From: Opisthorchis felineus
Lineage: Eukaryota; Platyhelminthes; Trematoda; Opisthorchiida; Opisthorchiidae
Reading direction: 5' to 3'
NCBI GenBank assembly: GCA_004794785.1
Contig: SJOL01004195.1
Span: 1-64,000, forward strand
Length of the DNA stretch: 64,000 nt
The translations under genes and the position numbers were made by a program. The notes beneath the pieces are model-generated. The model ran no database searches, had not been told where the DNA came from, and was given only the letters and a program-made list of their open reading frames with translations. Positions 3,633 to 61,300 of this stretch are shown piece after piece (position 1 is the first letter of the stretch; the number at the start of each line of letters is the position of its first letter).

Positions 3633-6600
3633 TCAACGCCATGTACCACGCATAAAAGTGTTGTAAGTACGAAGAGAGCCCACAATGTCAGGCAAACGCA
3701 AGTCACTGACTGTGACCTTAGTAAGTCCAGTCCAATATCAGCCTTGACGGACTGAGGAAAACAGATCCCTCGATAAGAAATGATCATCGGTTGGTGGACC
3801 AAAAAGTCGACATCACAACCGGTTACACGTAGGGCTGAGATTATGGCGAGGTAATATTCATCAACACCCTACTTCTGCTTCTTCTCATTCCACACAGTTA
3901 CTCCGCGCCCATCTGAGACTATGCTGACGTCTATCACAGTTGTTCGGCGCTCCCCAATTGCAATTAGGCCAGGCTTGATGAAAGACGTCGAAGTAGGTGC
4001 TCTCAATTCCTCAAATATGGTGTATCGCAGGCGACGGAAACGTTTCGCGAGTTCTCTTGCAACCCGATTATGACGAGCACATCTTGCATCATGCGTGATC
4101 TAGCAGGACTGCAAAATATGCACCAAACTCTCCGGTTGGCCAGTTTCCACGACATAAGATCATCTGGCCACCATGACCATGCCGAGCGCTTCTAACTCTC
4201 GTCCTGAGCAGCTTGAATCGGAGCTGGATACCGCGGATAAATATCCGAGGAAACACTAGTTCTGGAAATACGAGCCATCGATTCGAAAGGGCAGAAGCGA
4301 CCAACTCTCGTAAACCGCGACCCTCAACGGTGTTGTGCAGATTATCAACCCAAGCAGCCACCAGCTCTTCCTTGGTGTTTACGCATGCACCATGGACTCG
4401 GATCGGAAGGCTGAAATCCCGAACAATCTTGCCAAATGCGGAATCGTTGACTACATTGCGTAGTACTCGGCACTGGGTAGAAAAGAGCTTTTCCATACGC
4501 GCTCTCCGCTGCATCGGGATTGTTGCACTCAGACTTGGGATACCAAGTCCCCCATGTTGTTTACCGGCGTGGATGTAGCTGATCGGGGTGTCTTTCGGTA
4601 GACGTAGCCAGCCACGAATAGATTGCCTGATGTAGTTGTCCAACCTTTTGAGCGTGTTTCGGTGGACTTGGCCGAGCACGAGCGAATATGTCAGCCTCGG
4701 TATCAGGTAGTTCCTCGTGATCTCCATTCTTTGATGCGGCTTCAACGGGGCACGCGTCACCTCATCGAGCAGTTTGAGCAGATGCTGTCGGTGGTTGAAG
4801 ACCCCTTTCCCCTTGAATGTAAAGGGAATGCCCAAATATGTTACGGTGTCTGTCGGACCCAGAGGAGTGATGAGTTCCTCGGCGAAGCAAAATGGTTCGA
4901 CTGAGACTGCTATCGCCCGATGTTTCCTGTCCCCACAAATCACCATCGCTTTCGTCTTTCGGGCGTTTATCTTCATACCAGCTCTTCCCAACTCGACCGC
5001 AGCAGCTTCAAGCTTCTCTTTAAGGCGAGCCTGACTTTCTGCACACACGACCCAGTCGTCAGCGAAGGCAAAACCATCTACTAGGGTGTCATGGAACTGA
5101 TATCCCAGTTGCGGCATCGACAATCCAAGAACCTCATCCATTGCCATGATGAACAATAATGGGGAGAGTGGATCTCCTTGCCTCACACCTCTGTGGCAGT
5201 GAAACTCGGAATTGGGGAAAACTGCTACAGCATTCTCATAGGACTGTGCGATGTATCGAACTAGAGGTGACGGTGCTCCAAACGCCTTGGCAGATCTGAC
5301 GATTGTGTCATGCGAAACCGAATCAAACGCTTTCGAGATATCAACAAACGCCAAGCTGAGGTTAGAAGCAGTCGCTGAAGAGTGACGAAGCAGGGCATGT
5401 TACAGCAACGTAGCTTTCAAACAACCGTCTCGATGTAGAAATGAAAAATGGAGTGAGGGCAGTTGCAATCTACGACTCCAGCGATCTGCGAGCACGTTAT
5501 GAAATCATCGGACAAGAATGGGTGGCACGGAGATGGGTCTCAGTTGGTCCGCTGAAGTCGGATTTGGGACCTTTGGAACTAGAGTAATACTAGCACGACA
5601 CAGATGTGGAGAACAATCCCCGGATAATAAGAGTAAGTTGAAACACCCAGCGAGCGCGTTAGCATCGAGCCGGTGGAGCATCTTGGGCGTTAGCTCGTCC
5701 AGACCTGGGGACGAATTGCCCATAACACGGGTTGTACGGCCGACTTTCTCTCCTGTAATTGGCTCGATCAAACTCCAATCGGATGGTAGTACTACGCGAC
5801 TTGGCCGGCTATCCACGTGTTTTGGAGCTGAGAGCACCTGTTTCCAAGAGTGCTCGGCGTCCGGAGGTAGGCCGCAGTTACTTGTGTATAGATCCTTCCA
5901 TGACTCATCGAACACAGCAGACGCTGCATCTTTCCGTCTTTGTGGTATATGATTTGGATGGCGGCGTAATTGGCTCGGCAGATCTGCTTTCGGTTGACCT
6001 GCACCCGATTGGCTAGCTGACGACAGCGTCGGGATACCGTTTTCCAGGTGTGTGGAAATGTCTTGGAGGCGTGGAGGTCCGGAAGTGGCAAGACTTGCTC
6101 CGGTGTCATGATTGAAGAATACAACCCTCGGGCAAATGCCAGAAGGTCAACACTGGCAAACAAACTGTCAGCATGGGATTCCAAGATTGACATGGCGCAA
6201 TCCACGGTTTGTTTAAATTTAGACTGTATAGTCATCGGCTTCTGACGAGTAGGCCGCTATTTGACCGTTGGTTTGGTCAGGGCCACCAGCTGATGATTCT
6301 TCCTGTTGTGCTTCCCAGTTAAGCACCCGTAACCTGGTTTTAATGCTGGTAGCCGATCAACCAGGAAAATACTGCTCTAATCTCGTGAACAGCGCGGTTT
6401 GCGTGTCACAAGACGGGTATAAATTGCTATCCAGGCGCAAGAGCGATTGTGACTCTTGCTGGGACCAGCGGGCTTCGGAATACTTCACTCGGCCAAGCTT
6501 ATTTGCATTATGCTGGGTGGGGTGTACGTGCCGGCGATGTTGACTCAGGCCATGTTCGTACCAACACTTTCATTGTTGTGAACTCGATGGTGGGCTACCA

Positions 6601-15083: not shown

Positions 15084-15125
<42 letters not shown>
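15084..15125. repeat. (AT)n microsatellite
   Basis: About 21 uninterrupted AT dinucleotides. Frames crossing it read as alternating Tyr-Ile and are not genes. Confidence 0.98.
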
Positions 15126-17888: not shown

Positions 17889-20076
17889 GTCCCACGAGAT
17901 GTTTCGATGCCTGGCTCTAGCCTTTTGCCTAGAGCAGCACTCCAGAATCACGGTTGTTCCATGGAACGTACCGATCCTACTTTTCTGTGTAAAATGTTTT
18001 TTCTAGCCCTTTCAGGTACACTTTCTATGGCCGTATCCAACTGATATTTATATTTCCATCCGAGCAAATATTGACGGAACATTTTACGAGAGTTTCTTTT
18101 GGTTCGAGGAAATAGAGCTTTCAGACGGATTTGTGTCCTGTGAGCTGTTGTCTTAAGTGAACTTGATACGCTCCCAGATATTTTATCCTATATGAGGCTG
18201 ATGCGTTTGTGGCTCACCGACTGTAGATTGACTTTGAATTTTGATTGGTTAAGCAGTATCTGACCCCTTAGCCTAACACCGGACATTGCTGCAAGGCAAA
18301 GTCCACTTGCGAAACACATTCTGGCCATGCATTATCCAGTCCAACGGACATCATCTTTCTAAACCACGAGGCAGTATAATCACATATTATGACGATCTTC
18401 ACCATTGCTTTAGGGGGTCCTTACCCGATTCTGACTACAGACTACAGAGATTCCTCAACTGAACTTGATGTGAACCGTTCATCTGAGGTTGCTCGTTATG
18501 GTTAGTACCAATTACTAAGCGACAGGAAATCTTCAAATATAGGCCCCAATAACAGCGAGTTGAGGACTGACGCTGGTCATGTCACCGTATGACTTTCCTT
18601 GTACGAGAGCATTAAGTCTCTTACCATTCCGTAGACTACCGAAAATAGTTTAGGTATGACTTGTGAACTCAGATTAACTTTTGACGTGTCACAGCACTCC
18701 GTTGTTTGCATAATGGCATTGGAAGAAAAATGAGCGAACCGTATGTTGTTGACATTCAGAGATGAATGAATAAAATAGCGAAATAGAGTCTACACAAGTG
18801 TGTGTGGATTAGAATTGCATAGTGTGAAACATGGCCACTTTCAAGGTCTTCGCCTCGTTCTTTCAGCATGCACGTACTTTAGCCCATCCGTACTTGATTG
18901 AGCGGAACAGCCTGTGCACTGAAGCAAACAAACATGCGATGTGAAAAGAAAACATACAGAGGTATAGACTGTATCAGACAGGCAGGCTATTTGGAAACTG
19001 GTACCAACTTATCTATTCTTTGTTATGATTAAACAACGCAACAGCGCCTTCTAAGATGCCCGTACTTCTCATGTTCAAAGTGCGTGATCATCCTATCAAT
19101 TAATGCGGATAAGATTCTCAAGCTAAATTTGTTTCTAAATTTTTAGTGATAACCGAAGAAAATGAAAGAATGGTTCCGTGAAAAACCGATATTCCTGACT
19201 TCTTATTCACGCTTGTGTGTGTATCGCTTGGAATGGAGACTCCACGCGTCACTTGGTACAATGTTTTACTATGGGCAAATTTCCTTCAACATTAACACAG
19301 TGTGTGAGGTGATACTGTGTGGAACTGTTTGCGGTCTTTCCAGAAGCACACTACGCTGATTGATGTAGGAGAAGGTGCGTGTTGTGTGTTCTCATCAACA
19401 TAATTTCTAGCGCCGATAACACAAAGATTCCAAATCTGAGAATAGAACGGAGCGTAGATAGCTCCGCACAACTCCTGCTGACCATCGTCAGCCCTTAATC
19501 CAAACTGGCAGTTGATCCTACATCAGTTCCGGCTATTGCCTTCTATATCTCTGATAATATGTATAGACATGTGGATGGTGAATTTCATGGTAAGCGTGAG
19601 CATTGGTTTGATCCTGTTATTGATTCTGAGAGCGCGTAACGTTTGCGCAGTCTCATTTGGGCAACACAGTTAGAACAATGCCCCCGGATCTGACAACTGT
19701 GGTGAAAACCGGTACATCGAACTGGATCCAATTTATGCGCCTCTACGGGCGAAGGACCAAAATCTCAACCGGAATACTCAAGGAGAACCAAATATTGGGT
19801 TCGCAAACAAAGAAACAAGGAACTCCTTGGAGTCGGATCAATAAAGGTCGCAAGCCGGAACTCGGAAGGGGCAAAGGTTACTCCAGCATCGACCGGAGTA
19901 CGACGACAGGGGGTGCCAAGCTCAAAGGTCACATGGGCACCGACGAATGAGGACACAAGATAACGGAGCAACCAATGGAACCGCTCGACCGAACAACTAA
20001 TCGCGATCAAAGGTCAGCCCCAGCTAGCAGCACGTATATTAACACACACGCAACACTACTCAACGCACAAACACCA

Positions 20077-20224
20077 ACCCACCGCTACGCACCACTGCGC
20101 TCCCCAATAACGCACTGATGTTGTCACCTCGATTGGTGATGAAACGTTTGCAATCAAATTGCCCAGCTCAGCGAACAAGCCAACGACCATCTACGCTACC
20201 TGAGCTACCAACATTTTCCTCTAT
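20077..20224 (-). repeat. SINE-like repeat, family A, copy 2
   Basis: The best-preserved family A copy in this orientation. It contains CGCTACGCACCACTGCGCTC, AATAACGCACTGATG, GATTGGTGATGAAACG, CAGCTCAGCGAACAAGCCAA and CTACCTGAGCTACCAACATT. It agrees with 2588-2740 and with the reverse complement of 48689-48822 at most positions. On the minus strand it starts with the A-box-like GGTAGCTCAGGTAGCG. The sequence beyond its 3' end (plus-strand positions before 20077) differs from the other copies. Confidence 0.75.
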
Positions 20225-24317: not shown

Positions 24318-24578
24318 GCGATGGACCCAAATCCACGTAGGTTCTCCATCACACTCTAGAAAAATCCCGTCGTCGACATCCAACACCGATCTGGCCTGAC
24401 TAAGCTGATGTTGATGTTCCCGATACGGAACTTTGAGTGACGCGTAGGTTCGACAATCCTGACTATCAAAAGGAAGAACTGGGTTCGAAATTCTACGGTA
24501 CTATTTACATAAGCGTAAGCAAATGCATACTATAAACCTCAACTGTTCACGTTCGTAGCGTCAACAAGTGTACGAGTC

Positions 24579-24950
24579 TGTCACTGACCGGCACGGTGCA
24601 GTGTCAGCGTGCGCACACCAAACAACGGCGAGCGGAATGTTAACTCAGTAGTGTGGGCTGCGGTCGTCGCTTCCGACGACAGTCTCGTGATTCTCATCGG
24701 CGGTGCGATCGCACGGAACTCATGAGAAAACAAGTCAAGGCAAACTCAGCAAGCGGGACACGAACGCGCATGGGTAAGCAGGTCAACTGCGCACTCACAC
24801 ACAGACAGAAATGCTAGAACACAGGTGTCGGAAGGGACGGCCTTTGTGGCAGAGTGGCGGTTACAGACAAGCAAAACAAGTGGAGAGTCAAAAGTACATG
24901 GGCGGAGTAAGTAAATGAATGTGGGAATTATCATGAGGTCAAGTTAGATT
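24579..24950. repeat. Family D dispersed repeat, copy 1
   Basis: About 370 bp that aligns along its length with 47523-47902 in the same orientation. Shared blocks include GGCACGGTGCAGTGTCAG (GGCACAGTGCAGTGTCAG in the other copy), GAGCGGAATGTT, CAGTCT/CTTGTGATTCT, and ATGAATGTGGGAAT near the end. Where copy 2 has a long (CA)n, this copy has the short ACTCACACACAGACAG. The minus strands of both copies hold related 62- and 74-codon frames (both contain SLVLL or SPLVLL, then VPSDTCVL or IPSNSDVL), which could be incidental. The family is not recognised. Confidence 0.75.
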
Positions 24951-25062
24951 TAATAGCTGATTGGTCCTCTTTCCGCCTTAAATTTCAACCAACCTTATAA
25001 ACTAGTTACTTGGCCTGACTAGGCTTTCGCGTCTAAGGCGAAACGTCTGGATATTAATCCGC

Positions 25063-25290
25063 CGATTGTATAGACCTAATGCACTGCTCATGAGGTTGCG
25101 GAATACTCTTCAACAGCCCACGACTAGTTTCGCCCTTCTTGGTGCTCATCAGGTAGGCGCCGTCCCCGGGTCTCCGTCAACCTGATGTTCTGCATGAACC
25201 CAAATTATACGAACTTAGCGAAATGCCGATTTGGTTTTGACGGGAGACTCACTTGGAACCCAGCTGAATATCTCTTTGATGACGTTCTTA
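25063..25290 (-). repeat. Family B copy with intact hammerhead core
   Basis: Carries the end of the unit (TGTATAGACCTAATGCACTG), the hammerhead, and the next segment through GTCCCCGGGTCTCCGTCAAC, TTGGTTTTGACGGGAGACTC and AACCCAGCTGAAT. It lies head to head with an inverted copy at 25305-25530. The strand is that of the ribozyme sense. Confidence 0.8.
25116..25158 (-). ncRNA. Type I hammerhead ribozyme, best copy
   Basis: On the minus strand: stem I strand GCCTAC (25158-25153); CTGATGA (25152-25146); stem II GCAC/GGGC around the loop CAAGAA, with one A-G mismatch; GAAA (25131-25128); a minimal self-complementary stem III ACTAGT; cleavage-site C at 25122; and stem I return strand GTGGGC (25121-25116), which pairs completely with GCCTAC counting one G-U. 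Every invariant core base is present. Predicted cleavage lies between 25122 and 25121. The one- to two-base-pair stem III is typical of hammerheads in Penelope-like elements and schistosome satellites, which are thought to act best as dimers. Activity is inferred, not shown. Confidence 0.8.
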
Positions 25291-25304
25291 AGTGATTAAT
25301 CGAA

Positions 25305-25530
25305 CATCGTACCAACCAAAACATAAGGCGGCCTGGTGCAGCACATTCAGTTGCTTGAGGACACAATAAGCAAATTATTCAGCTGGGTTGCAGGTGAGCT
25401 TCCCGTCAAAAGCAGATTGGTATACAAATAAGTGTATTGCGCTAAATCAACCGATTCTTTCCAAAACTTCTCCAAAGTAGAGTTTGGGCTCAACTTACTG
25501 TCAGACCAAGTTGACTTCCGAACCTCCTTG
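25305..25530 (+). repeat. Family B copy, inverted partner
   Basis: In the opposite orientation to 25063-25290. It reads ATCGTACCAACCAAAACAT, GGCGGCCTGGTGCAGCACAT, TTCAGCTGGGTTGCAGGTGA, CCCGTCAAAA, AAATAAGTGTATTGCGCTAA and a looser TTTGGGCTCAA then AAGTTGAC, that is, the unit from its middle to just before the ribozyme. No ribozyme core remains. Confidence 0.7.
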
Positions 25531-28203: not shown

Positions 28204-29085
28204 GATCCACGGAGACGTTCGAATCGGTTTCTCATGACACAATTTTCCGATTCGCACCATTACCCATAGTTGGATACATCGAACAGCCCAATGAGAATAC
28301 TGTAGAAGTTTCCCCATTTCCGAGTTTCACTGCAGCATAAGTGTGAGGTAGGGATATCCACTCTCCCCAATATTGTTCAGCATAGTTATGAATGAGGTTC
28401 TTGAATTTTCGATGCTGCAACTAGGATGCCAGGTCCATGATAGTGAATGGTGTTGCCCTCACTGACGACTGCGTCATTTGTGTAGAAATTCAGGCTAGCC
28501 TTAAGAAGAAGCTTCAAGCTGCTGCGGTTTATTTGGTGACAGCTGGCGTGATGGTCAACACCCGAAAGCCGAAAGTAATGGTGATTTGTGGTTACAGAAA
28601 ACATCAAGCGACCGCGGTTTTGGTGGAATCGTTTTTTCTCTGCCGAGTAGTCTGTAGTCTGTAGTCTACATACAACACTATATATTTGTGCCCTATTTAT
28701 TTTCAAGATGAAAGAAGTCCGCAACCACCGACACCCGAAGCTGTAACTGCCCGACGAGTTGACGCATGCCCCGTTGAAGCCAAGTCAATTACATGCCTGT
28801 AAACAACATAGGAGACTAGGTATCCCAAGCGTGAGTTACAACATCCCGATAGCGCAGAAAGTTAGTGTGTCTACGCAGTGCCAAGTACTACACAATGTAG
28901 TTAATGCTCTTGTATTTGGCAAGGTTGTTCGGAGTCTGAGCCTCCCGATCCAGGTCCAAGTTAAGTGTTTGAACAAGAATGTTGAATTATTCTAGCGATA
29001 TTGTTGGTAGTCGTACTCGGCGATAGAGGGTTTGTTCGATTTGGTCATATCAACTAGTTCGCGACTGCTGTGACTATTGTTCTGT
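28204..29085 (+). pseudogene. Second R2-like reverse transcriptase remnant
   Basis: This is colinear with the 3633-6765 element but on the plus strand and more decayed. In order: FESVSHDTI (28215), GYIEQPNENTVEV, then VR-stop-GYPLSPILF, NEVLEFSMLQLGCQ, a frameshift, LTDDCVICVEIQASLKKKL (LTDD replaces FADD), NTRKPKVMVICGYRKHQAT, YICALFIFK (for YLGIPFTFK), ELTHAPLKPSQ, then a deletion of about 50 codons, then LHACKQHRRLGIPSVS and STQCQVLHNVVN. A weak match (SAIEGLFDLV) runs to about 29085. The N-terminal and endonuclease parts are missing. A TAGTCTG triplication (28648-28668) sits in the region just before YICAL. Identity to the first copy is high enough to show one family but low enough to indicate age. 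Confidence 0.88.
28648..28668. repeat. TAGTCTG tandem triplication
   Basis: Three consecutive 7-bp units (the last ends TAGTCTA) inside the decayed RT, in place of coding sequence present in the other copy. Confidence 0.8.
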
Positions 29086-29194: not shown

Positions 29195-29458
29195 TCGCAT
29201 TTACATATCAGTCTCTCGTTTATGATGTCCTCCAACTGGATGTGCTGCACAAAGGCCGCCTGATGTTTCAGTTGGTACGATATTTGTGATGTCGCAGTAT
29301 ATTTTCATAAAGAAAGCTACTGACGAGTTTGCTGAAAACACTCTGACAACCCACGACAGGTTTCATCCTTCTTGGGGCCTATCAAGTAGGCGCATTCCTA
29401 GACCTTATGTTCTACTTGAACTCAAGTTGGGCAGGTTTTGAGAAGTATTCTCATTTGA
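29195..29458 (-). repeat. Family B copy with decayed hammerhead
   Basis: Contains TCTCGTTTATGATGTCCTCC, AACTGGATGTGCTGCACAAA, GGCCGCCTGATGTTTCAGTT and GGTACGATATTTGTGATGTC upstream of the ribozyme position, then the ribozyme remnant and GTTCTACTTGAACTCAAG. In ribozyme sense the core reads TTGATAG for CTGATGA, with GAAA retained and stem II GCCC/GGAT. This copy places the segment found downstream in the 41455 copy upstream of the ribozyme. Confidence 0.75.
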
Positions 29459-29645
29459 AGAATATCATAAACAAGAGATTCAGCGGAGTCTCTAGTGAAA
29501 ACCAGATCGATATGCGAATAAGAGTATTTGTCTAAACCTGTCCAATTTGGGTTCAAGTAGGACACATGGTTGACGGAAACTAGGGAACTGTGTCTACCTG
29601 ATGAGTCCCAATAAGCAGTATGAGATGTTTGCACCATAGCAGACA
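29459..29645 (+). repeat. Family B copy, inverted partner
   Basis: Abuts the previous copy in opposite orientation: AATATCATAAACAAGAGATT, GTGAAAACCAGATCG, TTTGGGTTCAAGTAGGACAC, GTTGACGGAAACTAGGGAAC, then GTCTACCTGATGAGTCCCAA. The ribozyme left half (CTGATGA at 29598-29604 with stem II strand GTCC) is intact, but the GGAC-GAAA half is lost. Confidence 0.75.
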
Positions 29646-31579
29646 CGTTTAAACATAATATAAACGAAGTTGGCAGGTGGTCTTGCTTTCCAAAAGTACA
29701 TGATGAAGTTCTCACACGTTTGCCGGAGAAATGTCTTTTATCCAACGAAAAGCCAGCCTTTTGAAATTTCTGCTGATTTGATCGCTTTAAATGGGTGTAC
29801 AGTGATATCGCGGGGACTGCTTGTAAGAGGATAGTTTGGAAATAATGACGCAGGCGTGTAATGAGGGATTATTCAAAACAAAATCTGCCATCTAGTGGTA
29901 TCCTAGGATGTAAAGACTCAGTTAGAAACCAGGAGTCCGTACGCGCATTAACGTTTTAAGATGTCACAAACATCCGTTTACTGAGTTATTTCCAATCATG
30001 TTCATTTAGGCGATATAGGTGATACGTGGCCAAATTTTCCCGACAATTCTTCGAGAATGCCATCCTCCTTGACTGTAGAACTAGCCGTGGGCTTGACACT
30101 GCTCTGGGCATTCTGGCGGTGAGGAAGCTTGTTTATCGAGAAATCCGTGTAGTCTGGCGCTAATTATCCCCGCCAGAATGCCTTCATTGCGCCTGACCGG
30201 AAATGATTCCACCTGTAGTCCTGAAGCCACACTGAACCGGCCGATCTACAGTCCATCGAATGAATCTTGTTCCAGGATTTGAATATATCTCCGAAAATAT
30301 AGATATTTACTAGTTCTGGGATATGGTCGGCTTCATAATGGGCTGACAATGATTTTAGGCAATTTCTTGATTACCAGTTAGTGAATCCACTCACAAGCAA
30401 TCGTGTCGCGCTGATAGTGAAGCGCTTCAATCGAGGTTTATTGAGCAGTGATTCTCAAGGACATACTGCATGAAACCTGGTATCACGCGTCCCTAGTCAT
30501 GATATCCAATGCATAATGAAGTATAATGGTCTCAAAACCAAATCTTTGCTGTTGTTTTGCAGTTCACCGTGTCTCACTCATTGGCCAAGGCGGACAAAAG
30601 ACTTTTCGGTGTCACTTCAAACTTCTCAGAGATCTTTGTAACTGCGCACCACGAGAGGGTCACACCGATTAATGAAGTCACTCTTGTATTTCAAAGGTAG
30701 GTAACCGAAGTGACCCACAGAGCCAGTAGCGCGCCTCACATTGAAAGGACGGTCTTTCGGTGGAGGGCTCCGTCATGCTATGACCATCAGCAAGCAAACT
30801 GATGGGATCGGTAACAATTGGTGCGGTCTAACCGAAGGAATTTGAAAATTTTTTGAATAGTGGGAAAGGCATGCAAGAAATAAGCATCGAAGGTTTAATG
30901 CCTTTCATTAACACTTTTGTTATCCCTGGCACCCTACGGCAATCGGGTATTCTCCTGAAGAATGCATACATCTGCAACGGTTTTGCTGTCGAAACGCAGA
31001 TGGTTTCTGATCACTAGGTGCGCCGGGAAGTCTGGCTTAGGTGTTTTGTTATATGCCATATAGCGGGACATTTGGTGCAGCCCGGTTCGTTCAAAGCTAC
31101 CGAATTCCCTTAATTCGTCAACGGAATTGAATAAATTTAATCTGGCTGGGGGACTATAAAAATTCCTTGTTAGGCTTCCAGCGGTCGCATTTGTTAAGAT
31201 CACCCCGGCGTGTGGAATTCCAGGACTTTACCGTCAGGGATGCTTTTTGACATATGTTCAGCCGACTAATTGCCTTCCTAATGAGTTGACCTAAACTGGT
31301 TCCGGTCCTCAAAAGAATAGTAATCTCTTATTCGGTGTTGTTTGTTCAGCGCAGGAAAACCCGTCAGAATGGAAACAACCGCTGGCATCATACGTCACAT
31401 TGAACGTTCCCTGCGGTTGCTGGATCAAGGGAAAGAGGGGAAATAGGTAACAAATTTTGGGACTCAGTAGAGTGATGATGATTGTTTTCATATACTGCTG
31501 TAAACTGCATACCTCTTGTATAGTGGCTATAGCTGCCGGTATTCGTTCGCTGATGTTCTGGGAATACACAAGTGGATAC
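29646..31579. other. Anonymous non-coding stretch
   Basis: No gene or repeat recognised. Confidence 0.4.
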
Positions 31580-35819: not shown

Positions 35820-36036
35820 TGCGATGTCACTTGAGGCGGACTTGTGAGACATTAAATCGAAGTAGACTATCATAAACGAGAGATTCATCTGGATTCATTT
35901 GAGTTACCCGAAAAATCGGTATTAGTATTCAAATGAGTGCACTTCGAAAATTGCATTCAGTTTGGGTTCAAGTAGGCCATAAATTTGACGGAAGATCGGG
36001 GACTGCCCGATGGGCCCCAAAGAGGCCTGACAAGGT
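35820..36036 (+). repeat. Family B copy, ribozyme decayed
   Basis: Reads TTGAGGCGGACTTGTGAG, TATCATAAACGAGAGATTCA, CAAATGAGTGCA, GTTTGGGTTCAAGTAGGCCA, TTGACGGAAGATCGGGGACT, then CCCGATGGGCCCCAAAGAGG, the remains of the CTGATGA and stem II. The core is destroyed and GAAA is absent. Confidence 0.7.
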
Positions 36037-40867: not shown

Positions 40868-41097
40868 GAGTGAGTCAGCTGAAAAGCAGTTGGATTTCTT
40901 GTTCCTGACAGTCCTTAATTGAATGTGCTGCATGAAAGCCATCTTGTGGCTCAGATGAAACGATGCTGTGGTTCAATACAACGTGTAATATCTATGGGAA
41001 CCCTGGGCAGCCCACCATCAGTTTCGCCCCTCTAGAGGCCCATGAAGTGGTCCAGTCCCCATATTTTCATCAAACGTATTTTCTACTTGAATATCAA
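40868..41097 (-). repeat. Family B copy, ribozyme decayed
   Basis: Contains TTGAATGTGCTGCATGAAAG, the ribozyme position (CAGCCCACCATCAGTTTCGC, then CCCATGAAG) and CCAGTCCCCATATTTTCATC, ATTTTCTACTTGAATATCA. In ribozyme sense the GGGC-GAAA half and the stem I strand GTGGGC survive, while CTGATGA has become TTCATGG. Confidence 0.7.
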
Positions 41098-41454
41098 ATA
41101 TGATGTATGTTACAGTTAACACTCATCTGTTACTGAAGGGCGACCATCTGTAGTTAACCTCAGTGTCTTCGTGCAGCAAATTCAGTTCAGGAAACGATCG
41201 ATTGAGAAGAAATTTTACTGAGTCTTCTGTGGAAATCAAGCTTAGCTGAAAAGCGCGAAATAAGAATGATTCATACTCGGAGACTGGGCTTATCTGGTGA
41301 GCTTCAAGTGAGGTCAAACAGGTAGCGGAAGGTCCAGTAACTCGTTGAGTTTTATTGAGCTTATCTTTGTTGCAACCTTCTCAAATTTTGCGATTCGTAA
41401 GCACAGCATCAGTTATTTAAAATTCTGTAGACGTAACACAATATTCACAAGGTT
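41098..41454. other. Short unassigned gap between family B copies
   Basis: No gene recognised. It may contain further decayed repeat sequence. Confidence 0.35.
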
Positions 41455-41725
41455 TCTTAAAATACTTCGACAGCCCAAGACGGGTTCGTCTTTCCTGAGA
41501 CTCATCAGGTAGGCGCACCTCCGAGTTTCTGTCAAAACTATGCTCAACTTGAACATAAATTGCACGAGGGAAAACGCTCATTTGCCTACCTATTTGGTTT
41601 CACGGGGGAGACTCGCCTCAATCCCGGCAGAATCGTATATTTATCATATTCTTCAGCTGAATGTGCTTCATCAGGCGGGCTCATGTTTCAGGTTTTACGA
41701 TATTTGAGGTGTTAAGCTTGGATTT
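41455..41725 (-). repeat. Family B copy with near-intact hammerhead
   Basis: Hammerhead at 41473-41514 followed by CTCCGAGTTTCTGTCAAAAC, CTCATTTGCCTACCTATTTG, GGGGGAGACTCGCC, ATATTTATCATATTCTTCAG, CTGAATGTGCTTCATCAGGC and TTTTACGATATTTGAGGTG. This copy shows the segment order ribozyme, then middle, then GATATTTG. With the reverse order in the 29195 copy it gives a unit of roughly 305 bp. It is followed by an inverted copy. Confidence 0.75.
41473..41514 (-). ncRNA. Hammerhead ribozyme, one core change
   Basis: On the minus strand: GCCTAC, CTGATGA (41508-41502), stem II GTCT/AGAC with four Watson-Crick pairs around the loop CAGGAA, then GAAC in place of GAAA, CCGTC (site GTC) and TTGGGC. The stem II sequence differs from the 25116 copy on both sides and still pairs. 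The A15.1 change to C should impair or abolish cleavage. Confidence 0.65.
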
Positions 41726-42260
41726 AGTTCAGCCTTCTTTGAAGGGCAAACTGGTATGCAAATGGGTGTATGTGTCGAACTTTCTTTAATCTGGATTCAA
41801 GCAGAAAATCGGAATCGAAATCGTTCAGCTGTATCACTCTTTTGGTGCCTAGCTGCCATGCCAACCGGAAGAAGCACGAAGGCTGGGATACTGTCAGGAT
41901 GCCCAAGCCTGGACAGGAGAATTCGAGAGGCAGAGGCCGGGTTCAAGCAAAACATAGGGTTGATTGAATCTCGGGGGCTGCGTCTATCTGATGAGCCGCA
42001 TGGAGGACGTACCGGTTGTGAGTGGCCAAAGAGTATTTTGCAGCCTCATGTGTAGGGTGTTGTGTGTATACAATGCACTACGATAAATGTATGTCATACC
42101 ACCTGGAACATGAGGTGGTCTGATGCAGCAACTTCTTTTGAAGAAAAACACCATTACCAAGAGATTCGGCTAGGATGCAGGTAAGTCTCCCGTGGAGGTT
42201 ATACTAGTGCCTAAATGAGTGTATCTATCGTATTTAAAATTCTATTTTTCTGCGCATTCG
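41726..42260 (+). repeat. Family B copy longer than one unit, with nested insertion
   Basis: In the inverted orientation relative to the previous copy. It reads CTGGTATGCAAATGGGTG, ATCTGGATTCAAGCAG, an insertion, GGGTTCAAGCA, TCGGGGGCTGCGTCTATC, CTGATGAGCCGCATGGAGGA (decayed ribozyme, GAAA changed to GTAC), ACCGGTTGTGAGTGG, GAGTATTTTGCAGCCTCATG, TATACAATGCACTACG, ACCACCTGGAACATGAGGTG, AAGAGATTCGGC, AGTCTCCCGTGGAGG and AAATGAGTGTATC. After the insertion is removed this is more than one unit, so the repeat was once at least partly tandem. Confidence 0.75.
41804..41941. repeat. 138-bp insertion flanked by 8-bp direct repeats
   Basis: The family B sequence is interrupted between two copies of TTCAAGCA (41796-41803 and 41942-41949). 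Removing the insert restores the family text TTGGGTTCAAG-x-AGAACAT. The insert starts GAAAATCGGAATCG and ends AGAGGCAGAGGCCGGG. I do not recognise it. The 8-bp duplication suggests a transposition event, but no terminal inverted repeat is evident. Confidence 0.55.
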
Positions 42261-45200: not shown

Positions 45201-47522
45201 CGTCCATTCAGTGCGCCACCTGTTTTCTCACCCACAAAGATCAATCCATAGTATTTCTATAAAGTAGTGTTTCACTTCAGCAATCATACGGCTTTGATAT
45301 TTCGTCATCAGGCAAATACACATAAATAATATGAAGCATACACAATTGTAGTAACGGTATTTCCCTCAGCTGTGTTCTCGTTCTGAGCCTCTTAAGCTAG
45401 CGTTCACGTCAAAACAACCACCAAAGGTGCGCAAGGTATATTAACGCCCAAAACGAAGTCAAGAACACTTGTACAGCGCTCCATATATATAGCGTAAGCG
45501 GCGACAACTTCCTGGAAGTTCTGAGGCCTTCTGGATGCGCCATTGGCAATCGGCACTCGGCAACATCAACAGAGACAATTGCTATACAACTGGTGAATAT
45601 TTTCGCTCAGAAAAATCGTTCCGTAAATTAGTGAGGTCTTTATGTTTAATTTTTAAGCCATTTGGAAGCAAGGATTGTTGATTCGGGTAAACAACGCGAA
45701 TTTCTGTGCTCGAGCGAGAGGGAAACTAGACGGTGTGTGGCAACAGATCACCAAGGAGACAGTGTCACGAACGAGTATAGTTCGGTGCATTGTTATAGAT
45801 GGCCGTGCTTAACATGTTGACCTTGGAAATAACGCACACTATCCAGCTGAATTGCTTTAGTAACCCCGTTTAACGACCAATCCATCATAGGCGAAGTAAA
45901 CATACTGTCATTTGTTTTTTTAATAAAAGGGTAAAGTGCTCGCTGAATTTTTCATCGTCCTTGTCTGCGGGTCTTGTTAGAGGAACGTATGATTTTGGTT
46001 TCCCTTTTTAGTCTATAGATCCTATATACTGGAGAAGTGTGGAACAAAAGTCTAGTTTACAGGTGATGCAAAAAGTAAAACAAAACGAAAATATACAAGT
46101 CTGTAATGGCAGGATGATAGCTGATGGTGTTCTCGTTATGATCACGGGCATGCAACTGGCGCTAGAACTCAATGAAGCCCTCAACGGGTATGAAATATGG
46201 TACTACCACTTTAAATGCTACAGCTGGGGTTAACCGACACTCAGGGGAAATAGGGTGATGGCTGGTACCGAACAAACAAACAGGAACTGACTCCATCATT
46301 ACTAGTGACGAAGAGAAGAGAGTCATACTCGTCTGGTTTCTATATTGTTATTCGCCTTTAGATAGCCAAACTAATGCTCCGTGACTTTGAGTTGTTGAAT
46401 TTGAGTTCTATGGAGACCATGGGGCTAGGGTATACAGGTTAGTACTCCTTAATTAAATATAGAGCAAGCTGCTGTTTTTGTGTGGGCTATGGAGGGAACA
46501 TTTTGGGTTCGGTACACTCAAAACTGATGAATTCCGTCTTAGAGTGATGCAAACATATTGGAATAAAATGCTTAGTTTTTCTGGAATTTCGGATTCATGC
46601 CCCTATTGTGGTTGCTGGGTCTTTTGTGATATTGATAGTGAAAACGATAAGCCAATTTCATTTCTTGTCCAGAGATGCGCATTTGATACTTTTGACGAAT
46701 CCCTTTGATATTTTTCGTAGTCCTTAATATCCAGAAGGTAGCAAAAAACATATCCCTTCGGTTAAAATGTCATACTGCGCCTTAGCTAAGTCCGCTGTAA
46801 TCCTGTTGACAACAAATCTCCTTCGACTCCGAAAAGCTAGCCTAATTATCCGTCAAAGCGATTTGCTGAAGAGTTGATGCGGAATAATCTCGAGGTTATT
46901 TTCCATCCTTCTGCCCGTGTTTCGTTATCTAAACGTATAACCACACGGACACAAAGGTACACTCCTCTGGGTTTTCTCCTACCCTATTAATATAAATAGG
47001 GAATAAATTCCCCAACTGCCTTCATTTTAGACGTCTCTTAAACTGTTTATAAAATACGTCGCATTACCCGACTTTTTGACTTGTTCGTCCCTCGACAAAA
47101 GGACTTTTATAGTTAACGGTTCTTCGCTTTTCTGGTGTTTCCCACATAAGAAAACCGGCTCTTTCTAAGGCATCCCCCCTGCTGGGTGTTGGGCTTTCAC
47201 CTAGTGGATGAAGGTTGAATTGTAATATCTTTTGTCATCTCAATAATACCGGTGTTCGGCAAAAAACGTTGTATGCATTACCTCGAAGTCTGCGAGCCAT
47301 TCACCCGTCCAGATCTGTAAAGCACACTGATGGCATTACTTCGTGTTCGGTTATTGATATTTTTTACGGTCTGGTCAGTGTTGAGTTGGAACTTTGGGTC
47401 ACTGGTAGGTTAGACGATCACAAACATCGAAAGAAAGAACTGAGTTCAACAGTCTACGGTACTAGTAACACAAAAGTGAGAAGAATTACACATGTTTGTG
47501 GGGTTACAAAGCATGCACGTGT
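42261..47522. other. Anonymous non-coding stretch
   Basis: About 5 kb without a recognisable gene or repeat. Open frames are under 105 codons and featureless. Confidence 0.4.
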
Positions 47523-47719
47523 GTAACTGACTGGCACAGTGCAGTGTCAGGGTCCGCATACCAGACAAGGGAGAGCGGAATGTTGGCGACAGTCTCTTCC
47601 AAGGCCAGTCTTGTGATTCTGATTGGCGCTGCGATCACACATATATCACAACAGAGCAAGTCACGTCGGGCTCAGAAAATTGGTTACGAACACGCATTGG
47701 CAAGTAGGTAAGCTGACTA

Positions 47720-47756
<37 letters not shown>

Positions 47757-47902
47757 ACATGTTAATACATCACTGTTGGACGGGATGGCGTTTGTGTCAT
47801 GGTGAATGGTGTGTACAATGAGCAAAACGAGTGAAGATCCAAAGCACATGAACGGAGTAAGCAAATGAATGTGGGGAATCATCAAAATGTCAAGGTAGAT
47901 TC
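47523..47902. repeat. Family D dispersed repeat, copy 2
   Basis: Aligns with 24579-24950 in the same orientation: GGCACAGTGCAGTGTCAG near the start, GAGCGGAATGTT, CTTGTGATTCTGATTGGCG, ACACGCATTGGCAAGTAGGT, then after the (CA)n ACGGGATGGCGTTTGTG, GAGCAAAACGAGTG and ATGAATGTGGGGAATCATCA. The main difference is the expanded (CA)n at 47724-47759. Confidence 0.75.
47724..47759. repeat. (CA)n microsatellite inside family D
   Basis: About 13 uninterrupted CA units followed by TACACACA. The corresponding place in the other family D copy has only ACTCACACACAGACAG. Confidence 0.97.

Positions 47903-48822: not shown

Positions 48823-48869
<47 letters not shown>
48823..48869. repeat. (TA)n microsatellite
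   Basis: About 23 uninterrupted TA units directly after the family A copy. Confidence 0.98.
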
Positions 48870-51800: not shown

Positions 51801-54058
51801 AGCCCACAGTTGCCACGTTTTTTTACCGCACCTTATTGTCTCATCTGGAACGAACTAAGTTGCAATTCCTTGCTCGTATTTGTTGAAAGGGTCGTACTAG
51901 AAAATGTTTTAAACTGTGCGGCAAACATTGTCTCATACGGACAACAAGAGATTCTCATAGACCCTCGTGATAGACAGAATAGAAAATTTGAAAGCCTAAT
52001 GGAAATTTCGTCCGCTAAGTTAAACTAATCAACGCTGAAGGATCGTGAAGCTTTTCCAGTATAAACTGGTATTTCTTAGAGGACGAATTTCCATTAATAT
52101 TATCAAACATCATACTGCCAACGAAGTTTGACATACTGTCCAAAACGTCGTCTCAGGACCTCTCCAAGTCGCTGCTTAACTGATTTTGTACCAACCGAAT
52201 CTTGTGAACTTGTCTCTGAAAAAATCAAACAAACTTGAAATACGATAAAAACTCAAACTACTGTAATAAGATGTTATAATCCGAAGATTCGACTGTTGTA
52301 GGCAGGCTTTTCCTGGAATGATTTTGCAGTCGTGCGGTGCTGCTATTTCAGACGGAACTGACCTACAGGACCTTGCAAAAAGGTCTAGGAAATTTAGTAC
52401 CAAAGATTTGAGCCGGTGGTTGGGAGTCGATCAGGAAGAGCCAAAAGTGAAGCTGGAATCAGAATTGCAAATATTATCCAGCTATGTTTCATATATGTCC
52501 ACAAATGGCCAGTCAAAGAGATTGCTGTCCAGACTATGTGTCGCCGTTTGAATCTTGTAAGCAGCAAACCAAAACCTCATTACTCAGGCGTGCCCATCAG
52601 ACCAATCGCCGATTGCGACTTCTATTCGGCGTACTAGCTTCCATACCCTTAAATTGGACCAATGAGCTCCTCCAGATTAACTTTGTAGACAAATTTAGGT
52701 ACCCCTGATTTTACTGGCAATATTACGCAACAGATGTTAAATAAGAGCCAAACGTTCCTCAGTTTGATGTGTGTTCATTTATGACAGTTTATCTGAAGTT
52801 CCACTGTGTCTGTAGGTAAATGACTGGGCAACGCTTACTCACCCTGATTCGTCGCCCACCGAAAAGGTGACTGGTATTGGGCTTCGATTAAAATATGCTT
52901 TCCCCCATTCACGCAAATGAATATTTTACTGAAAACTTAAAAGAGCAAGTGATTGATAGTTTCTGCAGCAAGCAGACCATTTGGTGGCAATGTCGACATC
53001 ACATTCGTTTGCATTTTATATGGGTGTACCAATGACCTGCTAGTTTACCATACCATTTGTCTCAGCTTCGTCCACCAAAGTGCTCGATAGGACTTTCCTA
53101 ATTATGTACCGTTTCTAAGGGATTTAGTTAACGATCAGATAGTTAAAAGCTGTGCTAAATTGCGCTTTTTTCGAACACAGTCGGAATGAATGTAGGTCAC
53201 AGATAATGTTGCCAGAATTTTTTTTGTACTCTTGTACGCCCACGCGGATTCATGTTTACAGAGTCTTTGAGAGGAGGGTCCGGTTTGCTCGACAGCACAT
53301 GTCAGGGGTCACATTCACACAACCTTCGGCTGCGATTGATTGGAGGAAACAGTTTTGGATTTTACGCATCATCGCCGCAAGGCACAATACAGAGGGATTC
53401 CTCATGCCCGACCCCAATTATGGAGGCACTGTTAACTTGACTCGCATGTAAATAGGCAAGGTTGTTCAGTATTCGGAAAAGAACATCTCTGTTGGGGACA
53501 AAGATTTTTGGAACTTTATTTTGAAGGCATTTAGAGGGAAAATAATTCGAATAAGGTGGTTAAAGTGGTGTAGAAAGAATTTACCCTAAAGGTTTCTGGA
53601 AACTTCCAGTTCTTGAAAATTTTCAATCTTCTTGTTAACTTATTATGGTTTGGGGGCAGTGTTTTTTTCTATTCTTCTCCGTTGGTGGCGACGAAGGATG
53701 CCCCAAATGACATTTTTTCTTCCAGGACTTTGATGACCGAAATTCGATGATAGAATGACTGTTGAAAGACTGGGAAATGGTGAGTTATCACGTGTTGCCT
53801 CATCTTCATCTTCAACGCCCATTTACGAAATGCAAAATTTGCCAACGAATATGGCTCTGCGCTTTTCCACTTCATATTGTCGGCTAAGCAAAGTAAACTT
53901 CAGTCAAAATGTCTTCATAGTGTAGTAGGTTAGTCTGTAAACCGTCCTCATGGGAAAATTCATTGAAGTCCTCGTTATCTAATGGGGTAAGGTAGCGAAA
54001 ATAACTTCACCTCAGCTTGTCATCCGCATTCCTTCGATTCCTCGGGAACGTTAGTACC
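48870..54058. other. Anonymous non-coding stretch
   Basis: No gene or repeat recognised. The frame at 52318-52551 (77 codons, with TDLQDLAKRSRKFSTKDL) looks a little more protein-like than most, but has no recognised domain or splice context that I can defend. Confidence 0.4.
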
Positions 54059-54274
54059 TTGTATAGACGCAACACACTGCTCATAAGGTTGCTGAAAACA
54101 CTTCGGCAGCCCACGGCCGGTTTCACCCTTCTTGGAGCCCATCAGGTGGGCGCTGTCCCCGAGTTTCTGTGAACCCCAGTTGCACAAAATTAGCGAATTG
54201 CACTCATTTGCATACGAATTTGGTTTTGACAGGAGGTTCAAGTGTAACCTAGCTGAATCTCCCGTTTATAATTT
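54059..54274 (-). repeat. Family B copy with hammerhead
   Basis: Starts TGTATAGACGCAACACAC, then the ribozyme (54109-54151), then CTGTCCCCGAGTTTCTGTGA, CACTCATTTGCATACGAATT, TTGGTTTTGACAGGAGG and CTAGCTGAATCTCCCGTTTA. It is followed immediately by an inverted partner. Confidence 0.8.
54109..54151 (-). ncRNA. Hammerhead ribozyme copy, two core changes
   Basis: On the minus strand: GCCCAC, CTGATGG (last core A changed to G), stem II GCTC/GGGT pairing with two G-U pairs around the loop CAAGAA, GAAA, CCGGCC and GTGGGC. Stem I has six Watson-Crick pairs, one of them changed relative to the 25116 copy with pairing improved. The A-to-G change and the loss of U16.1 probably inactivate it. Confidence 0.65.
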
Positions 54275-54352
54275 GATTCAGCTGGGTTCCAGGTAAGGCT
54301 CTCGTCAAAACCAAATTGGGATGCAAATGAGTTTATTTTGCATGAGTATATT
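54275..54352 (+). repeat. Family B, inverted partner
   Basis: Reads GATTCAGCTGGGTTCCAGGT, AAGGCTCTCGTCAAAACCAA, ATTGGGATGCAAATGAG. It forms an imperfect inverted repeat of about 55 bp with 54206-54259, separated by 15 bases. Confidence 0.75.
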
Positions 54353-58066: not shown

Positions 58067-58257
58067 CGAGTTCCGTTAAATCCGGTCTGTTTTCGCAAAA
58101 AGCTAGCACAGGGAATAATCTCATTTGCACACTAATTTCGTTTCGACGGGAGATAACTGATACAACCTGTAGTTTATGATGATCTTCTTCAACTGGATGT
58201 GCTGCACACGACCGCTTTATGTTTCGGCTGGTACGATACACGAGATATCGCAATACA
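58067..58257 (-). repeat. Family B copy without ribozyme
   Basis: Reads TCGAGTTCCGTTAAATC, ATCTCATTTGCACAC, TTCGTTTCGACGGGAGATAA, AGTTTATGATGATCTTCTTC, AACTGGATGTGCTGCACACG and GGCTGGTACGATACACGAGA, ending TATCGCAATACACTG. Confidence 0.75.
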
Positions 58258-58322
58258 CTGTCGGAAACACAGGAACTGCGCCTACCTGAGGAGTTCCAAG
58301 AAAAGGAAAACAGTCGTGCGCC
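58258..58322 (+). repeat. Family B inverted partner with decayed hammerhead
   Basis: Reads GAAACACAGGAACTGCGCCT, ACCTGAGGAGTTCCAAGAAA and AGGAAAACAGTCGTGCGCC. The CTGANGA box is kept as CTGAGGA and the site AGTC is present, but stem II no longer pairs and GAAA has become AAAA. Confidence 0.65.
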
Positions 58323-61300
58323 ATTGAATGGTTTAAGGACACCTTATCGGGAATGGCTCACATGTAGGCAAACTAGCACGGCCTTAGAATACGTGTTGGT
58401 AATGGATACGAACTAATCAGTTTTATGAAGTAACTATTTTGACTCATTTAGTTTATCTGTGCTTCTATCTATGTACCATGAGACACGCGGGGGACAATGA
58501 ACGTTCACCCTATTTATCTGAAGTCAGTCTGCTCGGTGAGCTTCAAAAGGGGCTTGTAAACGTTTTAACACCGTGCCGTGTGAAGGGACGCTGTCAGCCG
58601 GAAAGCTATGAGTCTCCTTTTTTTGGCTGGCTAGTATTCAGAAATGCTGTGGGACTAATAGAAAAAACCTAATAGCATGTCAAATACAAGTGACCATGAG
58701 AAATATGTATGAAGATGCTCCAAAACGCACATAAGGGCAGTGTCACTGGGGGATCTCGAAAATTTATTGACTGTGTATTTTACTTTTATTAGATATCGCA
58801 TAAAGGTTTGGTGGCCACCTCGAAGGCCACAGTCACTATAAATACACATTTGTTTACAGCAATCACTGTCGTCTAACACAAACCGGTTATTATCAGTAAT
58901 TATGTTGCCTCAGCAAAGGTCAGGCGGTGGTCAATTACTAGCCAGGCGCTTGCACCGGAAAGTCAGCTCTGAAGAAACAACGAGGCTGGTACTGATTGCT
59001 TCTGGCAAGGGGTGTGATCGCTGACTCTTGTCCGCCATACTGTAGTCATTGGCAAAACATTTAATCATAACGATCAACGTGGCATCATGTCATCAAGACA
59101 AATCCAAACCCGTTAACATTTCTGTCAGAACAAACTCCAACCTCTGTACCTATTCATTTCACCACAAAAGCCTGGCTATGTGATACCATTGGATGTGTAC
59201 CCAGGGACGCACAAGCTGTTATTTTACCTACTACACATACAGGTTATGCTATTTTCTTGCCCAAAGGCACAAGATCTACCGTCCTAACATAGAGCTGAAG
59301 CATGTCGCCAAAGTAGTGGCTAACCGCTAACCCTCTGTAAGTGCCTTTACTTGCAGACGGGTCCAAGTCTAATCAAGAAATGCCCAAACTGCCACTAATT
59401 ACCACCAAATGTCCAGGGCGTATTTCATAGTCCCAACTAGGTGCTTAGCTCTGCTGACAAACAGATGGACTTCAGTAAAAAGCTTAATCTAGAAATAAAT
59501 CCGAAAAATTTATCCCGGTGTGGATTCGGATAAAAAAGAAAGAAATTTTATTGTGCGTCGGGAATTATACGTCAACCGAAACACACTCAATCTTTTTATA
59601 TTTCAGGACATATTCACCTAGCTGTTCATGAAGTAAAATTTGTAATTGCTCAGTGAGTCAGATCTGGAGGACAGACATAATTTTTTTGGCTAGAAACAAC
59701 TGTCTTAGAGCACATGCATCATGATGGAATTTGGTTGTCTCTTACTTTGAATGTGTGTTCACATATTCCAGCTATTCCATAGCTAAACCGATGAAACACA
59801 ACTTTCTCTCTGGAGAACAACCCAATAACTAGTTTTACAAAAATTCAGTGGATTTCAAAGGAGGAAAATGCTGAATAGAAAACAGTAGTATTTTCGAAAC
59901 AGTTCTCAGGAGCCCTGTGGCAGTCTGAGTTGTCCTGGAAATAGTGCTATCATATATAAGTTATTAAGCTTAGGGTAGAGAGCTTGAAAGATAGTCTTCT
60001 GAAAAACGGAACCAAGATCTGATTTTTCTAATTTTAAGGGCACGCCTTTATAGTTATCCCAAGAGATAGGTCCATCTATTTTTTAAATCAACGAAGAATG
60101 TTGCACATCGGACGACAAGGTTGCCAAACAAAGTAAACCCTGCAAACATTCAGTGGGAACTAAGTTTATTCACTTCTTTGTTTGGTGACTTTTACAAAAG
60201 TGACTTAGAAATCTTTTAAGTTACATTTCATACATTTACTACAGACTGATCTCCAGTCCTAATATGTTGTGAAAGTTGTCCTATTATGGAAATGATCTGT
60301 TTTGGAACGTTTACTGCATTTGAATTCTACTTAAATCTATCCAAGAAACGTCAAACGACAGTGAAAGTTACGTATTTTATTGGCAGTGTACCATTCCTGT
60401 TGGTTTGAACGACACCAGTGTCCGCCGTCAAGAGGCCAACTCTGACTGAATCGCCGATTAGGGATTTCTGATATCATGTAGCACAACAAAGATTCTGTTA
60501 TGTGCCTGTTGTCATTCGAATCGGGCTATGACAGCCAACCCTAGCCACGTACTGCTACAAAATACTCAGCATTTGCAGATGAATTTTTTAATCGATCTGC
60601 TTAATCAGTCGCATGCATTCAGCCAGAGCCCAACACCTATCTACACAGTTGCCGTATGCCTGTCAGTTGCAACTCCATTTACATGCCAAAATTCGCGCAT
60701 AGACTATTCAGCACTACCGGAAACCCTAGAATGCCGCTGTTCCAACAGTTTTGTTTGCTTGACGAGTGTCACACATGACGGCTTGCACTTTTAACTTACG
60801 GGCCTCAGTCTCGTGCCAAATAAATTTTCTCTTACTGAAACATTTGTTGGCTTTGTGCAGCAGTTTAAGCCGAAGAATATTATGAGTAGGGTTTTAAGTA
60901 ACTCCCCCCTCTGCTATCGTATTAAGGTGACTAAGAGTGCTAAAATGCTTGCTGGGTATGAGTGTGCACTGTAGACATTAGTTTGGTAATTTCGCCGTTC
61001 AAAATCATTGCCAAGAGTGCACGACTGATTCGTGGCAATTTGCGAAGATCCACTAGGGTTGACCTTATCTGGAATGTGTACCTTTCAGAAATAGCCTAAT
61101 AGTGCACTTTTTAAGTTGCAGATATTTGTCCGATTTCCACAATGTGTTTCCCTAACAAACGCCTGTAAAATCGCGTATTTTTTAACCTCAGGAGGAGTGC
61201 GCTTGGTTCGAGGCAACTTGTAGACCTGGTCGTCCCTAGCCAAACATATGCGCTCACTGAAATGTTTTAAAAAGTGCTTGCGGTATGTGTAGGTGCGGTG

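Follow-up and report, generated by a model that had tools for sequence, protein, structure and literature searches.

A motif that keeps every invariant base of a type I hammerhead core is located on the minus strand of contig SJOL01004195.1 of Opisthorchis felineus (assembly GCA_004794785.1). The window analyzed here comprises the first 64,000 nucleotides of this contig. The motif belongs to one copy (c25) of a dispersed repeat, which is probably an old, ORF-less, pseudo-LTR-like (pLTR-like) unit of an opisthorchiid fluke (~330 bases) with a minimal hammerhead of the Penelope-like kind. We prefer to describe the unit as Penelope pLTR-like or Penelope-derived and do not file it as a member of Penelope.

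The hammerhead motif and its predicted folding

Judging from its sequence, the c25 motif looks like a real hammerhead core of the familiar kind. The minus-strand layout proposed for it in an earlier, sequence-only reading (CTGATGA, stem II, ACTAGT, the C of the cleavage site, and GCCTAC with GTGGGC as stem I) was found in the DNA, and the position of the predicted cut agrees with the site expected from the core alignment (Table 1). Core positions of this and the sister copies (A9, G12, A13, A15.1, U16.1, H17) are labeled by the standard hammerhead numbering. As that reading had claimed for the invariant bases, c25 shows no deviation from the type I invariant core (CUGANGA, GAA, A15.1-U16.1, H17); the other five of the six aligned rows deviate. 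The core had also been called complete, which holds for the core bases and for stem I (six of six pairs, including one G-U; open-ended) but less so for stem II, where three of four facing positions pair and the third is an A that either faces G or is bulged. ACTAGT leaves no loop, which makes helix III impossible within a single c25 molecule.

Table 1. Positions of the hammerhead parts, the short frame and the copies of the repeat in the window.
Feature	Positions	Strand	Remarks
Type I hammerhead core	25116-25158	minus	every invariant base kept; expected cut 25122/25121
Stem I, 5' strand, GCCTAC	25158-25153	minus	
Core CTGATGA	25152-25146	minus	
Stem II, GCACCAAGAAGGGC	25145-25132	minus	14-nt stem-loop
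Core GAA	25131-25129	minus	
ACTAGT, self-complementary	25123-25128	minus	replaces helix III; pairing possible only with a second copy (sequence; 37 °C cofold of two 46-nt copies)
C17	25122	minus	directly before the expected cut
Stem I, 3' strand, GTGGGC	25121-25116	minus	
31-codon frame (putative)	25054-25149	minus	from ATG within CTGATGA to TAA; read by hand
Copy c25	24961-25258	minus	carries the intact motif; profile match, itself a seed
Head-to-head partner of c25	25293-25492	plus	profile matches 25293-25353 and 25388-25492; no ribozyme seen
Copy c54	54040-54247	minus	profile match; A9 to G, U16.1 to C; sub-threshold HH9 match 54096-54156
Head-to-head partner of c54	54287-54337	plus	profile match
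Copy c41a	41401-41708	minus	matches 41401-41622 and 41648-41708; one A of GAAA absent; sub-threshold HH9 match 41473-41508
Copy c41b	41930-42208	plus	GAAA broken; ribozyme region continues into start of next unit
Copy c29a	29204-29460	minus	three core bases altered; ribozyme region continues into start of next unit
Copy c29b	29479-29648	plus	similarity stops within stem II (by eye)
Copy c58	58187-58374	plus	G12 changed, one A missing
Decayed copy c40	40906-41092	minus	ribozyme remnant continues into next unit
Decayed copy c35	35893-36026	plus	ribozyme remnant
Decayed trace	41219-41315	plus	ribozyme remnant; E 0.00065

The rarity of the motif was assessed with a structured descriptor, composed after the motif had already been seen, that includes the core, stem II, the A15.1-U16.1 pair plus one more helix III pair, and a stem I of five pairs or more. 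Its sole full match on both strands of the window is c25, and two of 300 dinucleotide-shuffled windows contained at least one match (mean 0.0067). A looser stemless pattern gave six matches versus 2.4 expected, which is hardly significant (three of 100 shuffles reached six); c25 is not among them because the pattern requires at least four bases between GAAA and GTC, and c25 has three. In genome contigs, a gapped hammerhead pattern returned 11 bacterial contigs, which is close to the chance expectation (around 9), and these were rejected. Hammerhead patterns scanned in viral contigs gave 0 matches.

At the curated gathering thresholds of Rfam, no hammerhead was found in the whole window, an outcome that the sequence-only reading had named as a refutation. 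Yet at relaxed thresholds RF02275 (Hammerhead_HH9) was the best covariance-model match at c25, c54 and c41a, and all three matches fall inside copies of one repeat. Their scores (26.3, 23.7 and 23.5 bits) lie below the cut-off of 52 bits, which is a detection threshold and not a structural feature. The c25 motif, which differs from HH9 in having no helix III loop, gave 26.3 bits, with an E-value of 0.00022 on 501 bases and 0.028 on the whole window. Of the 21 relaxed Rfam matches, the remaining 18 are not hammerheads, and 15 of them lie on AT microsatellites (15 and 48.8 kb). The AT dinucleotide arrays occupy 15084-15125 and 48823-48869; the latter adjoins a dispersed repeat common to 2581-2740 and 20065-20224.

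As for the predicted folding, two 46-nt c25 molecules cofolded at 37 °C form a double hammerhead with a six-pair helix III (-28.8 kcal/mol versus -26.0 kcal/mol for two monomers). A different two-molecule fold of c25 has the lowest energy when the temperature is 25 °C, and the majority consensus of the six copies does not give the double hammerhead as its lowest two-molecule fold at either 37 or 25 °C. A tandem cis dimer of c25 favors another fold (-28.3 versus -26.1), and the lowest-energy monomer fold pairs the catalytic CUG. The majority consensus reads CCAGTC after GAAA, with an A/G tie at column 81; its core is paired when folded, so the consensus alone gives no support for an active ancestor. 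According to PMC7761336, minimal hammerheads of this build may cleave as dimers.

The repeat family and the probable decay of its ribozyme

The sequence-only reading had placed the motif in a repeat found at many places, and this was confirmed using an nhmmer profile built from eight seed copies, which gave 20 matches above the inclusion threshold in the window. As counted by hand, eight of these are the seeds, four overlap seed stretches, and eight lie wholly or mostly outside them. The length of the unit, very roughly 330 bases, was summed from pieces of different copies, no single copy showing the whole unit. In our reading of the alignment, the ribozyme region of c29a, c41b and c40 continues into sequence that opens the unit elsewhere; therefore, units can abut without an ORF.

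Opposite-strand neighbors within 300 bases, counted by hand in the profile table, are head to head in seven of nine cases (at 25, 29, 40-41, 41-42, 54, 57 and 58 kb), whereas the other two, at 41.3 and 57.9 kb, are tail to tail; the 300-base cut-off was picked afterwards, and two of the seven head-to-head cases rest on weak matches (E 0.00027 and 0.00065). The minus-strand partner of c58 is represented by profile pieces in 58104-58253 that overlap the plus-strand match, and blastn places the minus piece at 58172-58255 and the beginning of the plus piece at 58264. A program that misses arrays less than about 70% alike detected no tandem array in the window. The nearest same-strand ribozyme remnants, c40 and c41a, are approximately 480 bases apart, both are broken, and an opposite-strand piece lies between them.

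Approximately 50-90 bases upstream of the hammerhead, several copies, c54 and c41a among them, retain a ATGCAAAT-like stretch (seen as GTATGCAAATGAG and variants of it); it is possibly a promoter element and may be regarded as a candidate. A second repeat pair was observed beside c25, with 24427-24641 and 24800-24950 showing about 74-77% identity to 47388-47584 and 47748-47901.

The motif alignment included six copies (c25, c54, c41a, c41b, c29a and c58). Copies c29b, c35, c40 and the trace at 41 kb were excluded because their motif region is truncated or too degraded, and c57 was excluded since it begins after the motif. The numbers of core deviations in the aligned copies were 0 (c25), 2 (c54), 1 (c41a), 2 (c41b), 3 (c29a) and 2 (c58). 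A13 is absent in three of the six rows and A9 is replaced by G in two, and the core changes are thus not all private to one copy; all core positions except A13 are retained in at least four copies. Over the six copies, 85.0% of cells are paired at the true register versus 36.7-43.9% at six slid registers. Covariation is weak: three pairs with double changes were reached by 43 of 500 shuffles, the covariation score by 77 of 500, and the percentage paired by 205 of 500. The pairing and core-change data of these copies do not indicate selection acting on individual copies.

This pattern fits a ribozyme ancestral to the repeat family that decayed afterwards. The earlier suggestion that the whole family probably bears ribozymes can be retained for the ancestral state but not for active ribozymes, because five of the six aligned copies have lost core bases and the four extra traces, which stand outside the alignment, are either truncated or further degraded. 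The c25 copy itself is probably a relic, since there is no second ribozyme on the same strand at a distance of one unit; the next on the minus strand, that of c29a, is broken and lies about 4.2 kb away.

The short frame and the search for coding genes

The ATG within CTGATGA, whose A is located 28 nt before the expected cut in c25, opens the short frame listed in Table 1. In a Penelope-like element, the hammerhead of the pLTR would have the start of the ORF at stem II. The corresponding open stretch is longer in c54, and stops occur in c41b and c29a. Counted by codon position over five of the six rows (c58 left out), 19 of 26 columns (position 1), 14 of 24 (position 2) and 13 of 25 (position 3) were variable. 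These counts show no third-position excess and therefore lend no support to coding constraint in this frame. Protein searches with the short frame, a query length at which they are weak, found nothing at E 10 or better (five candidates) and, in a second search, nothing at E 1 or better (three candidates).

Among the 303 stop-to-stop ORFs of at least 60 aa in the window, 20 were scanned with Pfam, and neither a Penelope reverse transcriptase nor a GIY-YIG domain was found in these 20; there was one real match (RVT_1) and one DUF3270 match below the cut-off. A six-frame motif scan of the window detected no GIY-YIG and eight short YxDD-like matches, of which only the R2-type one was judged real. 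The R2-type reverse transcriptase ORF (4092-5399, minus strand, RVT_1) is closest, among the matches listed, to R2-annotated proteins of Clonorchis sinensis. In the best 120 of 664 matches, identity with these proteins was up to 97% over 27% of the query and 93% over 62%, and identity with R2-annotated proteins of Opisthorchis viverrini was up to 87% over 36%. These matches point to an opisthorchiid fluke as the probable host of the window. The stretch 28309-28788 is a decayed inverted relative of this ORF, pieces of it being 76-84% complementary to pieces of 4731-5220.

Origin of the unit and comparison with known systems

A hammerhead in a retroelement repeat is ordinary for animal genomes and is already known from Penelope-type elements. 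PMC7761336 and PMC6155905 describe minimal type I hammerheads in which the non-conserved bases of helix III are usually missing and which occur both in Penelope pseudo-LTRs and dispersed. For Penelopes of Adineta, PMC3846280 indicates that the first ORF codons belong to the pLTR and that the commonest observed inverted pLTR arrangement is head-to-head. On a Penelope origin of the fluke unit, ancestral repeat transcripts would be cut at the C before the 3' strand of stem I, and two hammerheads would pair via the self-complementary stretch, completing helix III for each other. A Penelope protein may assist the cleavage, which would yield RNAs with defined ends at the boundary of the unit. As for the Anolis element PAc, PMC11167929 reports that its hammerhead was cut only with the element's protein present, that mutation of the hammerhead had no effect on insertion in vitro, and that no reads ended at the cut; a role in mobilization is therefore unproven even in Anolis, and any such role of the fluke hammerhead would be presumptive.

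The abutment of the ribozyme region and the next unit in c29a, c41b and c40, which leaves no room for an ORF, would also suit a non-autonomous retrozyme of the Sm-alpha or non-LTR type. In such a retrozyme, short units lie in tandem, and their transcripts are cut by the hammerhead, circularized and mobilized by the enzyme of another element. In addition, no coding sequence was found for the repeat in the window, and, according to PMC7229834 and PMC8490949, platyhelminths carry retrozyme-like repeats with type I hammerheads and schistosomes carry Sm-alpha, respectively. However, the program mentioned above, within its sensitivity, detected no tandem hammerhead units in the window, and the closest same-strand remnants are broken, about 480 bases apart and interrupted by an opposite-strand piece. 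Moreover, PMC7761336 attributes a stable helix III to most type I hammerheads of invertebrates, and the loop of this helix is lacking in c25. Such a retrozyme seems a somewhat unlikely source of the repeat. We also consider, tentatively and as rather improbable, an ORF-less retrozyme-like unit with a minimal Penelope-type hammerhead that would be cut via dimers between RNAs and mobilized by a fluke Penelope enzyme. If true, such a missing link would show directly, at the sequence level, that animal retrozymes depend on Penelope elements, as has been proposed.

It is very improbable that the motif is a chance match in an unrelated repeat and the ribozyme was never functional. The score under the curated Rfam threshold, the imperfect stem II, the five broken copies of six and the weak covariation would agree with a chance match, and the state in which one A of GAAA is absent (three of six copies) could be the older one. 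They are opposed by the single match in the window versus the shuffle mean of 0.0067, by the retention of every core position but A13 (3/6) in at least four of six copies, and by the HH9 scores of two sister copies.

If the finding is confirmed, opisthorchiid flukes would join the hosts of hammerhead-bearing retroelements, and the repeat family could help test the dependence of short ribozyme repeats on Penelope enzymes. Among the open-access titles listed for Clonorchis with hammerhead and for Clonorchis or Opisthorchis with Penelope, none dealt with such a ribozyme in these flukes; Cervera and de la Pena (2014) and Lunse, Weinberg and Breaker (2017) may cover trematodes. The word "ribozyme" is absent from the available part of PMC11270206, one of the papers listed.

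By description, non-LTR retrozymes and schistosome Sm-alpha/W36 resemble the fluke repeat in being short, in carrying a type I hammerhead and in that no coding sequence was found, and Sm-alpha likewise occurs in a trematode. The fluke repeat differs from them in its minimal ribozyme and in that the window yielded no tandem array. It is unlike Penelope-like elements in that no reverse transcriptase or GIY-YIG endonuclease was found for it in the window, units of some copies abut with no ORF between them, and no named element was matched. The sequence-only reading did not recognize the family, although it named Penelope-like elements as known hammerhead carriers, and the resemblance is indeed to minimal Penelope hammerheads. 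The repeat shares with them the core, the missing helix III loop and the ATG inside CTGATGA that opens a putative frame in the repeat, and, like Penelope pLTRs, its copies are mostly arranged head to head (7/9).
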